From Streptococcus mitis B6 (GTDB lineage Bacteria > Bacillota > Bacilli > Lactobacillales > Streptococcaceae), in assembly GCF_000027165.1 (NCBI RefSeq), contig NC_013853.1, positions 1,054,001 to 1,118,000 of the forward strand: a DNA stretch of 64,000 bases, given 5' to 3'. This document shows, piece by piece, positions 42,292 to 52,645 of this stretch. Below the pieces are notes generated by a model. The model saw only the letters and a list, made by a program, of their open reading frames with translations. It ran no database searches and was not told where the DNA came from. Numbering within the stretch: position 1 is the stretch's first letter; every line of letters starts with the position of its first letter. Position numbers and translations under genes: made by a program.

Positions 42292-42350
42292 AAGCAGTGA
42301 TACCGCCTCAACGTGTGGTGCTAGTATACTCCTATATTATAGAACGAAAG
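42292..42350. repeat. rlmD-3'-end-like boundary repeat, copy 1
   Basis: AAGCAGTGATACCGCCTCAA, then CGTGTGGTGCTAG, then CTATATTATAGAACGAAAG. On the minus strand the first part reads HVEAVSLLIQTD and a stop, like the rlmD C-terminus ([12 protein letters not shown]). The last part is shared with copies at 45934-45976 and 48472-48528. The rest of 42233-42499 is AT-rich without a gene. Confidence 0.7.
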
Positions 42351-42499
42351 GGATAGAGTTGATGTTTAAACTTAAACTTTAGAATGAAAATATTTTATAG
42401 TTACCATTTTTCAACTTTTTAGCTGATAATTATCACTTAATAAATTTACTTGTGAAATCACTTTACTCTTAACGCCCCAACTATCAAGTTATTCTTTTA

Positions 42500-42907
42500 T
42501 CAACTCTGGAATTTTTTGCTAATATCCCTCAAAGCAATGCCAACTGATTTTCTAACATATTCACTAGAATCTTCTTTTAATGTTGCGATTCGTTTAGTAG
42601 CTTCAGCTGGATTATCCTTGAAATATGGTCTACTAGTCCATATTCTCAAACCTTCTGTAACAGCTCTTCTAACATTTGGATTACTGTTTTGTAACCATTC
42701 GTCAATAACCGGAAGAGATTTTTCATAACCTGTTTGCTTACAAAATTCATCAAATGCTTTTGCTAATACTTCTTGAACTCTCCAATTGTCATCCTTTGAA
42801 ACCTCATCCCTCATGAAAATCAAAATTTCATATGATAACAATTTACTACACAGGATATAACAATTTTTTCAAATTCTTTAAAAATAATTTTTTTCTGATT
42901 TGTTCAT
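42500..42907 (-). pseudogene. HEAT-repeat (DNA alkylation repair-like) gene, truncated and frameshifted
   Basis: A full ribosome site (AGGAG) and ATG 42907 start MNKSEKNYF, then a stop. One more T in the run near 42875 would continue FKEFEKIVISCVVN, and another single base would join the 113-codon open frame 42841-42500 (SYEILIFMRDEVSKDDNWRV to ALRDISKKFQS). The latter has HEAT repeats (VRRAVTEGLRIW, VRKSVGIALRDI) of the AlkD-like family. The middle of a normal 220-residue protein is missing. Confidence 0.7.
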
Positions 42908-42912
42908 ATTTA

Positions 42913-44121
42913 TTACTCCTGAATTTTAAATTTAATGATTTTTCTATTTAATAATATCCAAATAGTTACGATAGCGTATATAATAGTTGAAATCAGGTAA
43001 ACAGCCTGTATACCAATCCGACTACTTAAATAGCTAAATATTGCCAAAGAGCCAGATGAAGTAATCGTTAATATTAATTGCCTTAGAGAAAAAATACGTC
43101 CTATCGAATAAGTAGGCGACTTCTCTTGTATTAATGATTGTTGCACCAAATCTCTAATTTGATACGGAATTCCAATGAAAAAGTTAATAACAAGAGCCAA
43201 GAAAGCTACTTTATTAAAAGCGTATATACCTGTAAAAATAGCAACCAAAAGTGATGAAAAAAAGATAACTTTTCCCCCAAACTGAGAAATATACTTAGAG
43301 TATCTAATGCTTATAATTCCTCCTACAATCGAACCTACAAAGTAAGCAGCTCCTTGAAATCCCCACCATTCCTCTGATAAGTTCAAAAAACTCGTCGTGA
43401 AAAATAATAGAAAAGTTTGCGTCCAAATCACATTAGCAATTGATTCACATGTATCCATAATGGTTATATTCCACAATTCAGTAATATGAAACAAATCATA
43501 CCATCCCTGCTTCAATCTCTCAAAATAAGAGAGTAAATTCGTTTGCACTCTATCTTTTGTATCTATTTTCTTCAAGAGCCACAAGGATATAGTAATCATC
43601 AAAATAATCACACAAAATGCCGCAAAAGGATTAAGGAATAGAACAAAAGGTATTCCAAATGTCCAAGTAGCAGTTTGAAATACTTGAATGACAGTATAGA
43701 AAATACCATTTAAACGAATTCTATCCTCTTTAATTATATCTGCAAGCAATACACCTTGCGCAGGAGAAATAGCACTATCTAATAAACTCAATAAAAATTT
43801 TGATATTAACACAAGGTATATATATCTATAAGTACATATGAGTAGTATAATAATAAAAACTTTTGCTATCAATGCTCCTAGCATAATCCACTTTGCTGAA
43901 ATTTTGTCAAAAATATTTGAAAGTAGAATACTTCCTAATATTCGTGAAATAGATCCAACAACTAGAATCATACTTGTATCAAATAGCGATTGACTCATTT
44001 GATATACAAAGAGAATTAAAACCATATCTAACAATATACCAGCAAGAATAATAAATACTTGGGCTGTTAGAAACTTTAAAAATGACTTACTAAGTTTATT
44101 ACTTTTTATTTCTGTTTTCAC
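42913..44121 (-). CDS. MFS drug-efflux-like transporter
   Basis: 402 residues, about 12 membrane helices, resembling the MFS group of macrolide-type and multidrug exporters (VLADIIKEDRIRLNGIFYTV in the loop after TM4, the AAYFVGSIVGGIISIRYSKY region in TM7). It uses a GTG start at 44121 with AAGGA six bases upstream. It overlaps the end of a small broken gene. Substrate not predictable. Confidence 0.82.
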   Translation of the reverse strand: MKTEIKSNKLSKSFLKFLTAQVFIILAGILLDMVLILFVYQMSQSLFDTSMILVVGSISRILGSILLSNIFDKISAKWIMLGALIAKVFIIILLICTYRYIYLVLISKFLLSLLDSAISPAQGVLLADIIKEDRIRLNGIFYTVIQVFQTATWTFGIPFVLFLNPFAAFCVIILMITISLWLLKKIDTKDRVQTNLLSYFERLKQGWYDLFHITELWNITIMDTCESIANVIWTQTFLLFFTTSFLNLSEEWWGFQGAAYFVGSIVGGIISIRYSKYISQFGGKVIFFSSLLVAIFTGIYAFNKVAFLALVINFFIGIPYQIRDLVQQSLIQEKSPTYSIGRIFSLRQLILTITSSGSLAIFSYLSSRIGIQAVYLISTIIYAIVTIWILLNRKIIKFKIQE

Positions 44122-44262
44122 AACTATCCTTTTTCAAATATTCATTTAATTTAGAAAAATACTTGAAGTAACTTTTCCTATCAACAGGAATAAAATGATT
44201 TTTCACTTAAAATCAGATGTTCATTAACTTCCGTTAAATAATGTATTCTTTTAGTCAACATT
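44099..44262 (-). pseudogene. Small frameshifted gene in front of the MFS gene
   Basis: ATG 44262 (GGAGA upstream) reads MLTKRIHYLTEVNEHLILSE, then KSFYSC and a stop. Removing one A from an A5 run continues NHFIPVDRKSYFKYFSKLNE to KKDSCENRNKK and a stop at 44099, about 54 residues, overlapping the MFS start. No family known. Confidence 0.5.
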
Positions 44263-44345
44263 ATCTTCTCCATTTTATTAAACTAGTGATAGAGGGCGTA
44301 CATTTATTCCCATTAACTTATTTTCTTTGGTAACAAAAACATCCC

Positions 44346-44487
44346 CACAGTGTTTATGGAAATAGAATCCATATCAAATAAGTTATCAAACCTAGAAAAA
44401 ATATGAGAGGTTACTTCCCCACTAAACGAGAAAAGTCTTTACCTACAAGGCTGTTCATTACTCATTTCGTCAATGCTTTAGTTTCGT
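44346..44487. repeat. Divergent intergenic repeat, copy 1
   Basis: Aligns with 51693-51838 over about 140 bases at roughly 65-70% identity, with a 20-base block (CAAATAAGTTATCAAACCTA against ...AATCTA) nearly identical. It carries no convincing ORF. It occupies most of the 44263-44511 gap. Confidence 0.5.
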
Positions 44488-44511
44488 AGATTCAGATTCG
44501 AATGATTAAAA

Positions 44512-51376: not shown

Positions 51377-51574
51377 TTATTTTTTTGAGTAAATAGCCCC
51401 CATAATATCATCAAAATAATCAACGGTATTTAGGAGTAATTCAATAACCTGGGACTTTGTTAGTCGCATTCCTCTTCTATCTCTAGCATCTTCTACTAAA
51501 TTTTCAAGTTTCTCTAGATTTTTATCATCCAAGCTAATCATTATTCTATTTTTATCGGTTGCCATTTTCATCAC
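51377..51574 (-). CDS. Ribbon-helix-helix DNA-binding protein
   Basis: 62-65 residues. NRIMISLDDKNLEKLENLV is the ribbon and first helix, and RLTKSQVIELLLNTVDYF the second, as in CopG/ParD/MetJ-like regulators. Three start codons are possible; ATG 51565 has GAGGTG at good distance. No toxin gene of known type is adjacent, so it may be a regulator, not an antitoxin. Its promoter holds two of its probable operators. Confidence 0.75.
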   Translation of the reverse strand: MMKMATDKNRIMISLDDKNLEKLENLVEDARDRRGMRLTKSQVIELLLNTVDYFDDIMGAIYSKK

Positions 51575-51583
51575 CTCAAGTTA

Positions 51584-51613
51584 ATTCTATCACAGGTGTA
51601 TCACTTGTGTCAA
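51584..51613 (-). promoter_or_regulatory. RHH gene promoter with two tandem operators
   Basis: Minus strand TTGACA (51613-51608), an 18-base spacer, and TAGAAT (51589-51584). On plus, ATCACAGGTGT (51589-51599) and ATCACTTGTGT (51600-51610) are directly adjacent and fill the spacer. Two adjoining 11-base units suit cooperative RHH dimers. Confidence 0.8.
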
Positions 51614-51692
51614 CTGGCTTTTATAATACATTAGTCTAAAAGTGGAGAGGATTTTTAACACAGTAACTTTAAATCTTTAGTATTAAAAAATT

Positions 51693-51838
51693 TTCACAGT
51701 AATTATAGAAATAAAATTTGTCTCAAATAAGTTATCAAATCTAGTATAAATTATGAGCGTCTACTCTAATACTTTACCTCTAAACAAGAAAAAGGCTTAC
51801 ACTCAAGGGTTTTCTTAACCCCCTTCGTTACAACGTTT
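51693..51838. repeat. Divergent intergenic repeat, copy 2
   Basis: Partner of 44346-44487. Near 51805-51830 it includes AAGGGTTTTCTTAACCCCCTT, which can form a hairpin. The 51614-51886 gap has no gene otherwise. Confidence 0.5.
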
Positions 51839-51886
51839 TGACGCTTTTACTAGCAAAGGTACATACTCACAAGGAACTTTGATTGA

Positions 51887-52453
51887 CTATTGAATCTCTC
51901 CCACTTCTTCTTTAACATATCCTTCTACATCTTCAATCTCTACAAACATTGGGTCTAAGTGACACAAGAAATGCCAATCTTCGCTCCCTTTTTTTCTGTA
52001 AAGAATCGCTTCGCCGTCTTCACTTCCGAAAAAGCTTCTATCTACTTCATATCCACTGCCTTCTAGAAAGTCTTTTGCCAGCCGATAGTTTGCTTCTCTT
52101 GCTTCCACATAGGTTTTAACTTCATCGTTGTTAACGACATATGCATCGATTTTTGAATAGCCTTCAATTACTTTTTCGTTTGGTTCGGATAGATTCGAGA
52201 TTTCTTTCCAAATAATGTCAACATTTTCCTTAGAATCAAACATAAATTTAGACAAAGGTACAATGTTTCCGTTATAGATAATTTCCATATAGTCTGGTAG
52301 ATTTGTAGGATTAAAAAACTCTACTTCAAATCCATCTTCTGTTTCTAAAGTATATCCCGGGATTTGAGCTACAAAGGCTTTTCCATCTTCTATGGAATCA
52401 AATGCGACTAAATCTTTAGAATAATTATTTTGGTACAATTCCAATATAACCAT
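51887..52453 (-). CDS. Hypothetical acidic protein
   Basis: 188 residues from ATG 52453 (GGAGAG upstream; frame open to 52498). Acidic, with strands and helices alternating (MVILELYQNNYSKDLVAFDS, YTLETEDGFEVEFFNPTNLP, SFFGSEDGEAILYRKKG). This composition recalls immunity or SMI1-like proteins, but no motif is firm. It is the gene closest to the rlmD end on the accessory side. Confidence 0.55.
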   Translation of the reverse strand: MVILELYQNNYSKDLVAFDSIEDGKAFVAQIPGYTLETEDGFEVEFFNPTNLPDYMEIIYNGNIVPLSKFMFDSKENVDIIWKEISNLSEPNEKVIEGYSKIDAYVVNNDEVKTYVEAREANYRLAKDFLEGSGYEVDRSFFGSEDGEAILYRKKGSEDWHFLCHLDPMFVEIEDVEGYVKEEVGEIQ

Positions 52454-52598
52454 CGATAATCTCTCCATTTTCATTATCAGGCTAATGTAAATAAACACGT
52501 CACCTGACCAATTCAGGCTCTCTGTATCATCTCGTCATATTTCCTACTTACTTTACGAGTCCTATCCAACGGGCGGATTCAAAAGTTTTGGGAAACCA

Positions 52599-52645
52599 TT
52601 TGAGGATTAACTGCGTTTCACTAACAAACTTACACATTCAACATG
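52599..52645. repeat. rlmD 3' end, native copy of the boundary repeat
   Basis: 47 bases identical to 45895-45941, covering the last 12 codons and stop of rlmD and the eight bases beyond. This is the presumed attachment site from which the island modules were built up. Confidence 0.85.

Follow-up and report, generated by a model that had tools for sequence, protein, structure and literature searches.

Organization of the rlmD Locus

Downstream of rlmD (rumA), which encodes a 23S rRNA uracil methyltransferase, the chromosome of Streptococcus mitis B6 (one contig, 2.15 Mb) carries a row of small accessory units separated by copies of the rlmD 3′ end. The row was analyzed in a 64-kb stretch of contig NC_013853.1 (positions 1,054,001 to 1,118,000), referred to here as the window; G000 denotes its own genome, other G-numbers denote compared genomes, and L-numbers denote loci of relatives. 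Each copy consists of a core, which begins CATGTTGA at position 52645 in rlmD itself, and the tail that follows, and three of the seven copies in the window are preceded by one common end, CTTTCGTTCTATAATATAG, designated END1. Starting from rlmD, the row consists of the core at 52645, the gene for a 203-amino-acid (aa) protein, a decayed core (51874), a 65-aa gene, an ATP-grasp gene of the R2K clade, and 123-aa and 427-aa genes, followed by END1 (48528) with a decayed core, the genes for 365-aa and 389-aa proteins, and END1 (45976) with its core (45941). It continues with 82 gene-less bp, a core (45859), approximately 125 gene-less bp, a diverged core (45734), the AAC(6′)-like, S51, MFS, and HEAT genes, END1 (42350), a core (42315), and an alpha/beta hydrolase gene (Table 1).

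Copies of the rlmD end were scored with a profile that was derived from 80 tails at other loci and excluded the window, and with 30 shuffles of the 64 kb as the control (best shuffle score, 9.2 bits). Five copies (52645, 51874, 45941, 45859, and 42315) scored 15.3–32.2 bits, thereby exceeding every shuffle hit. The copies at 45734 and 48490 are decayed and fail the best-shuffle mark by themselves; the latter recurs behind a matching END in four relatives (L034, L042, L045, and L047). Allowing up to two mismatches, END1 occurs three times in the S. mitis B6 genome and its reversed pattern not at all.

These results bear on a preliminary description of the region, made from the sequence alone, in which a series of four rlmD-end copies had been recorded. 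The unchanged 47-base repeat of the rlmD end at 45895–45941 was confirmed, the HVEAVSLL-type tails reported near 42292 and 45836 were found again, and the outer end said to be common to three copies corresponds to END1. All four copies are present, but the row holds at least seven, including those overlooked at 51843–51874 and 45710–45734; the two gene-less units (45941 to 45859 and 45859 to 45734) had also escaped notice. A decayed tail proposed near 48472 is borne out by the same copy behind the END in four relatives, but not by its own score of 6 bits. The accessory modules are indeed separate, yet the 203-aa gene constitutes its own unit, and the ATP-grasp unit includes the 427-aa and 123-aa genes. 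Nor does the row end at 42292 as described: it extends further, because the alpha/beta hydrolase gene that follows is a unit sitting directly on rlmD in L163.

A 67-bp direct repeat (78%) was also observed at window positions 44336–44402 and 51685–51751. Since the latter copy immediately follows the decayed core at 51874, the former may mark a further decayed rlmD end, and such an end behind the S51 gene may divide unit 6 of the row in two.

Table 1. Features of the row in the window, in order from rlmD.
Feature	Position	Strand	Remark
rlmD (rumA), 23S rRNA uracil methyltransferase, 452 aa, likely insertion target	52607..53965	-	Pfam tRNA_U5-meth_tr and TRAM
rlmD 3′ end with core	52599..52645	-	profile 26.6 bits
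203-aa protein, unit 1 (52645-51875)	51887..52498	-	without Pfam or NCBIfam match
rlmD-end copy, decayed, tail type D	51843..51874	-	15.3 bits, above all hits of 30 shuffles
65-aa protein, labeled RHH in the preliminary description	51377..51574	-	without Pfam match
ATP-grasp protein, R2K clade, 254 aa	50550..51314	-	PF18299, 8.2e-43
123-aa protein	50012..50383	-	family in 12 of 41 loci, 427-aa family present in every one
427-aa protein	48653..49936	-	without Pfam domain; family in 13 of 41 loci
END1 copy with one mismatch, ahead of decayed core	48507..48528	-	
Decayed core after END1	48466..48490	-	6.0 bits, under best shuffle (9.2)
365-aa protein, HEPN-like C-terminal part	47219..48316	-	R321-x4-H326 invariant in 22 aligned sequences
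389-aa protein, partner of 365-aa gene	46026..47195	-	model pLDDT (predicted local distance difference test) 88.3
END1	45955..46024	-	CTTTCGTTCTATAATATAGAAG at 45955-45976, another, imperfect copy of the motif some 40 bp upstream
rlmD-end copy, same as present rlmD end	45895..45941	-	47/47 bases identical to 52599-52645
Gene-less unit, 82 bp: tail A, hairpin, rlmD-like end	45860..45941	-	cluster of 11 units, 81-83 bp
rlmD-end copy, tail type B (HVEAVSLL)	45835..45859	-	32.2 bits, top score of window
Gene-less unit, about 125 bp	45735..45859	-	cluster of six units, 124-127 bp
rlmD-end copy, diverged, opening AAC(6′)-like unit	45710..45734	-	8.5 bits, under best shuffle; placed by upstream context
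AAC(6′)-like acetyltransferase, 148 aa	45168..45614	-	NF043067, 193.6 bits (cut-off 140)
Peptidase S51 family protein, 202 aa	44512..45120	-	PF03575, 1.4e-13
MFS transporter, 402 aa	42913..44121	-	cluster without further member in 41 loci
HEAT/DNA-alkylation-repair-like protein, 113 aa	42500..42841	-	one relative longer, 224 aa
END1 copy	42329..42350	-	
rlmD-end copy, tail type B (HVEAVSLL-type)	42291..42315	-	22.5 bits
Alpha/beta hydrolase, next unit of row	41408..42232	-	beyond the span of the preliminary description

END1 and Its Position Relative to rlmD

Among the 197 genomes searched (G000 included), rlmD was detected in 195, and END1, with up to two mismatches allowed, in 53, compared with nine for the reversed pattern. 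An rlmD core lies no more than 45 bp behind END1 in 54 of the 70 places (three of them in G000), and in 24 of the 26 exact matches. For 48 places, rlmD is on the same contig, the other 22 being unplaced; 47 of these 48 have the orientation of rlmD, and 34 sit 2.5–13.9 kb downstream of it. The repeats are thus not distributed at random places with respect to rlmD.

Switch at the Core and Displacement of Units

The window was compared with 40 loci chosen for an END match, giving 41 loci in total. Relative to L034, L042, L045, and L047, identity is 0.97–0.99 across 300 bp on the left side of the core and drops to 0.44–0.63 on its right side. When 91 locus pairs with a common final gene ahead of END were compared, similarity on the left was 0.85 or higher in 71; on the right, it was below 0.70 in 56 of those 71. 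Breakpoints were assessed from inter-locus alignments (minimum length, 250 bp; minimum identity, 92%), an end being scored at a core when it lay within 20 bp of one in each of the two partners. By this measure, 88 of the 422 left ends and 66 of the 364 right ends met a core, versus 0 and 0 in a single random draw. With only distinct positions counted, the values were 43 of 235 and 36 of 184, versus maxima of 1 and 3 in 200 decoy sets.

Cutting from core to core yielded 94 units, including 13 recurring clusters. Displacement was seen in 37 pairs, which involve 11 of 36 rlmD sites and 26 cores away from rlmD. In these pairs, at least 560 of the 600 bp right of the core are 95–100% identical, and the 57 bp to its left are only 0.16–0.47 alike. 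Blocks are common up to the core and different beyond it, and the same block abuts rlmD in one locus and trails other blocks in another. For instance, the alpha/beta hydrolase unit (42315–41300) begins at rlmD in L163 (93% identity) and at END1 cores elsewhere, the AAC(6′)-like unit begins directly at rlmD in L058 and L159 (92–93%), and a unit related to that of the 203-aa gene likewise terminates at a core in L055 and L062.

The end of the methyltransferase itself is variable: in 33 loci, RlmD has ends of several types, comprising 11–16 residues from the core onward. In 10-bp bins, rlmD identity is 0.82–0.93 ahead of the core and 0.83 in the bin immediately behind it, declining to 0.32 by 50–60 bases past the core. 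Five pairs have rlmD bodies at least 93% identical, and in three of these the tails are less than 70% identical.

An alternative source of such patterns is homologous recombination following natural transformation, which would do most of the shuffling through the repeated tails and ends, the insertions themselves being old. END5 (another of the end types described below) and the tail copies have tens of bases in common, so adjacent copies could recombine; the unit orders 1022-939-716, 1022-716-891, and 1022-891 bp resemble losses of single units; and the tails of L149 and L061 differ internally, yet the loci are 97.5% alike across 600 bp. However, the left flanks of END1 and rlmD are unrelated (0.16–0.47) and the tails are of several types, leaving little common sequence around the switch, which makes homologous recombination an improbable principal cause.

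Serine Recombinases and Prophages with the Same End

Four genomes (G068, G049, G123, and G014) encode an overlapping pair of large serine recombinases (413 and 460–462 aa; one member was scanned in Pfam) between rlmD and END1, in intervals of about 53–58 kb. The G068 interval (52.8 kb) is a prophage with PHROGs matches for terminase, portal, tape measure, and endolysin. Compared with its counterparts in named rum phages from S. suis and other streptococci, the pair's first recombinase is 69–70% identical; identity with that of Javan269 (S. infantis) is 95%. In phi-SsuSSJ27_rum, the recombinase pair is followed by cargo, an END1-like double motif, and the rum tail; phiJH1301-2 carries a variant end plus tail. 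END1 is thus the right end of recombinase-bearing elements.

Viral contigs were surveyed for relatives of the second recombinase, with 54 of 68 loci used and 14 omitted (contig ends or weak relatives). At least 600 bp follow the gene in 46 of these 54; nine have a tail there, seven of the nine have an END (two of them alike), and a tail was found elsewhere in none. The END pattern gave no exact match in viral contigs; the search with recombinase proteins found the ends instead. Traces of such enzymes persist in the rows of relatives: recombinase C-terminal pieces occur in five (L034, L041, L059, L061, and L071), and a 583-aa serine recombinase ends in the core in L053, as do broken relatives of it in L042 and L040.

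Because END1 is the right end of pair-bearing Phi-m46.1-type prophages, the enzymes responsible are likely serine recombinases rather than the tyrosine recombinase assumed in the preliminary description, and the full elements indeed carry large serine recombinases instead. A tyrosine integrase was also considered as the cause and rejected: PF00589 matches occur in 33 of 33 genomes, but among the matches listed only those of G191 (305 aa) and G031 (411 aa) lie between rlmD and END, in intervals of 60–90 kb, with that of G136 unplaced. Separately, three serine recombinase frames (524, 137, and 507 aa) that are distant relatives of the rum pair were observed at G000:C1:1765578-1767914.

Breadth of the Row and Recurrent Unit Sizes

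The row extends to relatives without END1. In 20 such relatives, a non-random set selected for high rlmD identity, at least one rlmD-end copy was found within 20 kb in 19 and at least two in 18 (rlmD's own counted), and such a row thus seems common among these relatives; 60 shuffled stretches gave no copy at 9 bits. Across 61 loci, 234 copies were identified, of which 36 are rlmD itself, 14 have an unclassified flank, and the rest fall into nine end types, assigned by loose patterns such that END1 and its variants overlap.

Certain sizes recur exactly: all 12 END7 units measure 124 bp, 13 of the 37 END5 units measure 1022 bp, and 7 of the 55 END1 units measure 5385 bp. Gene-less units are mostly 81–131 bp long: the cluster of the 82-bp window unit (n = 11) has six distinct known left neighbors and nine distinct known right neighbors, and the class of approximately 125 bp includes 11 END5b units of 124–131 bp and five END5 units of 126 bp in relatives. 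The END5 end consists, at 28 of 37 places, of the first 37–39 codons of an ADP-ribosylglycohydrolase gene, which is complete in the window (40560–41414). Since these 28 ends lie inside a truncated gene, the corresponding END5 units look like fixed truncation products.

Recurrence of this kind raises the prospect of an integron-like system, with rlmD as the entry site, the units as cassettes, and a trans-acting recombinase that still captures and shuffles them. Core-to-core units do recur among independent neighbors, the END7, END5, and END1 units have fixed sizes, and the cargo includes AAC(6′)-, APH-, MFS-, and TfoX-like genes. Integrons are defined by the tyrosine integrase IntI next to the array and by structured attC sites, and Pfam gave no integrase match for any of the 11 proteins encoded between rlmD and 42.3 kb. 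The END5 ends within a truncated gene point to deletion products, and the phage-derived ends and recombinase remnants point to decay; an integron-like system is consequently very improbable.

At some sites, such as the END4-type sites L156 11585 and L167 3749 and also L048 5140, the core is preceded by codons resembling DMFP, as at the end of a second methyltransferase-like gene; at DMFP-type sites, other genes may serve as the target.

Gene Content of the Row

The accessory genes do not always occur together: of the 41 loci, 13 carry the 427-aa gene, 13 carry the AAC(6′)-like gene, and five carry the 365/389-aa pair. Independence is only partial, since the 365/389-aa pair is accompanied by the 427-aa gene in all five of its loci. 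The 2.55-kb unit of this pair is 96.6–99.1% identical in four loci and terminates at an END1 core in all four. The two genes had been described as a HEPN pair, but the R-x4-H residues of HEPN are seen only in the 365-aa protein and not in its 389-aa partner. The structural model of the 365-aa protein has a mean pLDDT of 65.7, being poor across most of the first 160 residues, and its HEPN matches are weak (all E > 1); for the model of the 389-aa protein, no solved structure matched at E ≤ 0.001. The 427-aa protein has relatives in Listeria, Enterococcus, and Lactococcus whose source records call them cellulose synthase; no Pfam domain matches, and this name looks wrong.

None of 10 cargo proteins matched defense-gene models. 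By Pfam, no integrase, relaxase, or conjugation gene was found among 11 scanned proteins at 42.5–52.5 kb, and a scan of the window segment with Pfam alone gave no phage structural gene. Beyond the row, a PezA-like epsilon-antitoxin with a helix-turn-helix lies at window positions 35865–36341; PezAT is known from pneumococcal pathogenicity island 1 (PPI-1).

Comparison with Known Systems

Elements of the staphylococcal cassette chromosome (SCC) type are defined by insertion at rlmH and by ccr recombinases, whereas the site in the window is rlmD and the row has no recombinase. Elements inserted at rumA (= rlmD), accretion in tandem, and remnants without an integrase are already known, and the statement in the preliminary description that elements integrate at such genes in streptococci is borne out by PMC4701971 and PMC5053989 (PubMed Central identifiers; the sources in this section are represented by excerpts). 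The new features are the sharply modular row, its presence in 18 of 20 further relatives, and the gene-less units of fixed size; within the open-license literature searched, including excerpts of PMC7563491 and PMC9137128, no description of a mitis-group row of rlmD ends with units of fixed size was found.

The closest counterparts are prophages of the Phi-m46.1 group, for which the rum site and tandem elements have been reported (PMC5053989). Their target is likewise the rum (= rumA = rlmD) 3′ end, their cargo lies between the recombinases and an END-like right end, and the END1-like right end beside the rum core is also present in the window. Unlike these prophages, the window has neither phage genes (Pfam) nor the recombinase pair, and it carries several end pieces and cargo in series.

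Integrative and conjugative elements (ICEs) with a single serine integrase also insert at rumA, swapping the 3′ ends of rumA and the integrase (PMC4701971), and integrative and mobilizable elements (IMEs) have been described at this gene (PMC5357655). Their geometry is matched by the L053 recombinase and its broken relatives in L042 and L040; in the window, however, no single-integrase end was recognized, and the clear ends are of the END1 type, which matches prophage ends and not an ICE. Decayed ICEs or IMEs that retain their attachment (att) sites are termed CIMEs (cis-mobilizable elements), and S. salivarius has tandem accretions that include gene-less microCIMEs of 130–220 bp (PMC7563491). 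The window units are similar in being integrase-less and bordered by the tails of one target, some of them decayed. They differ in being located at rlmD, in the size of the gene-less units (mostly 81–131 bp), and in having phage-type ends, whereas the S. salivarius CIMEs, as excerpted, lie at rpmG, rpsI, fda, and rplL, with two or three elements each.

PPI-1 is located at the same gene, rumA (SP_1029), termed a hotspot in PMC4321634. The excerpt of that study describes Mega insertions, other elements, and deletions rather than a row of rlmD-end copies.

Origin of the Row

The row of rlmD tails is most probably (roughly 0.78) the product of successive insertions at one core by serine recombinases of mobile elements, parts of which were later lost. 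Insertion and loss in series had been proposed in the preliminary description, and the comparison of relatives supports it. In the proposed mechanism, insertions would occur repeatedly at the core CA[TC]GTTGAG in the rlmD 3′ end, the likely enzymes being the large serine recombinases of Phi-m46.1-type prophages and of rumA-type conjugative elements. Every insertion would provide a new rlmD end (11–16 codons in the loci compared) and displace the previous tail downstream together with all that follows it. The phage or transfer parts of the inserted elements were probably lost afterward, and the residue would be a stack of small units, each consisting of a tail, cargo genes or none, an element end, and the next tail. 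The units may still be movable when a relative supplies the recombinase.

Several observations weigh against this explanation. As already stated in the preliminary description, no integrase is left: a recombinase remnant was not found in the window (best E with the pair proteins, 0.075), and all 17 recombinase-cluster frames compared with the window gave better hits only to rlmD tails, from a frame running into its own tail. The cause in the window, and with it the identity of the enzymes and the order of events, is therefore read from relatives. Serine recombinases of the S. mitis B6 genome sit elsewhere, at 1.77 and 0.40 Mb. Regarding the prophages, the phage-gene scan covered G068 alone of the four pair-bearing intervals, the Javan269 record breaks off within the recombinase and so shows no end, and 37 of 46 viral contigs have no profile-recognized tail. 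The tyrosine recombinases between rlmD and END in G191 and G031 make other enzymes possible. Part of the fall in identity after the core is expected, as the bases beyond the stop codon are non-coding, and 12 of the 71 left-alike pairs remain alike (≥0.84) right of the core, as expected from descent or block transfer. The compared genomes, moreover, are non-independent samples.

The remaining exceptions concern the position of END1. A recognized core is absent behind END1 in 16 of 70 places, including exact matches in G165 (C1:1831701, at 1.83 Mb) and G168 (C1:981225), which are possibly secondary insertion sites or rearranged rows; the END1 of G038 lies 226 kb away from rlmD, and that of G099 has the opposite orientation, 88 kb from rlmD. 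Together with the control hits in nine of 197 genomes, the core-less places would suit copies that arose by chance or belong to a dispersed repeat with no tie to integration. This possibility is contradicted by the 47-base identity, the shuffles, the position and orientation of END1 with respect to rlmD, and the displacement pairs, and its probability is practically negligible.

Implications for Mitis-Group Streptococci

A bolder proposal, speculative and on balance unlikely, is that rlmD of the mitis group gives entry to an integron-like array of cassettes operated by large serine recombinases, with the end of RlmD rewritten each time. If so, any prophage or conjugative element that brings a recombinase would reshuffle, capture, and drop single-gene or gene-less cassettes. 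Independently of this proposal, serial insertion and loss at rlmD would explain the gain and loss of accessory genes in the rlmD flank, a highly variable region in the mitis group and also the site of the pneumococcal PPI-1. END1 together with an rlmD tail provides a marker to delimit units in a genome, and the row opens the question of whether the paired serine recombinases of a prophage can move units that are not its own.

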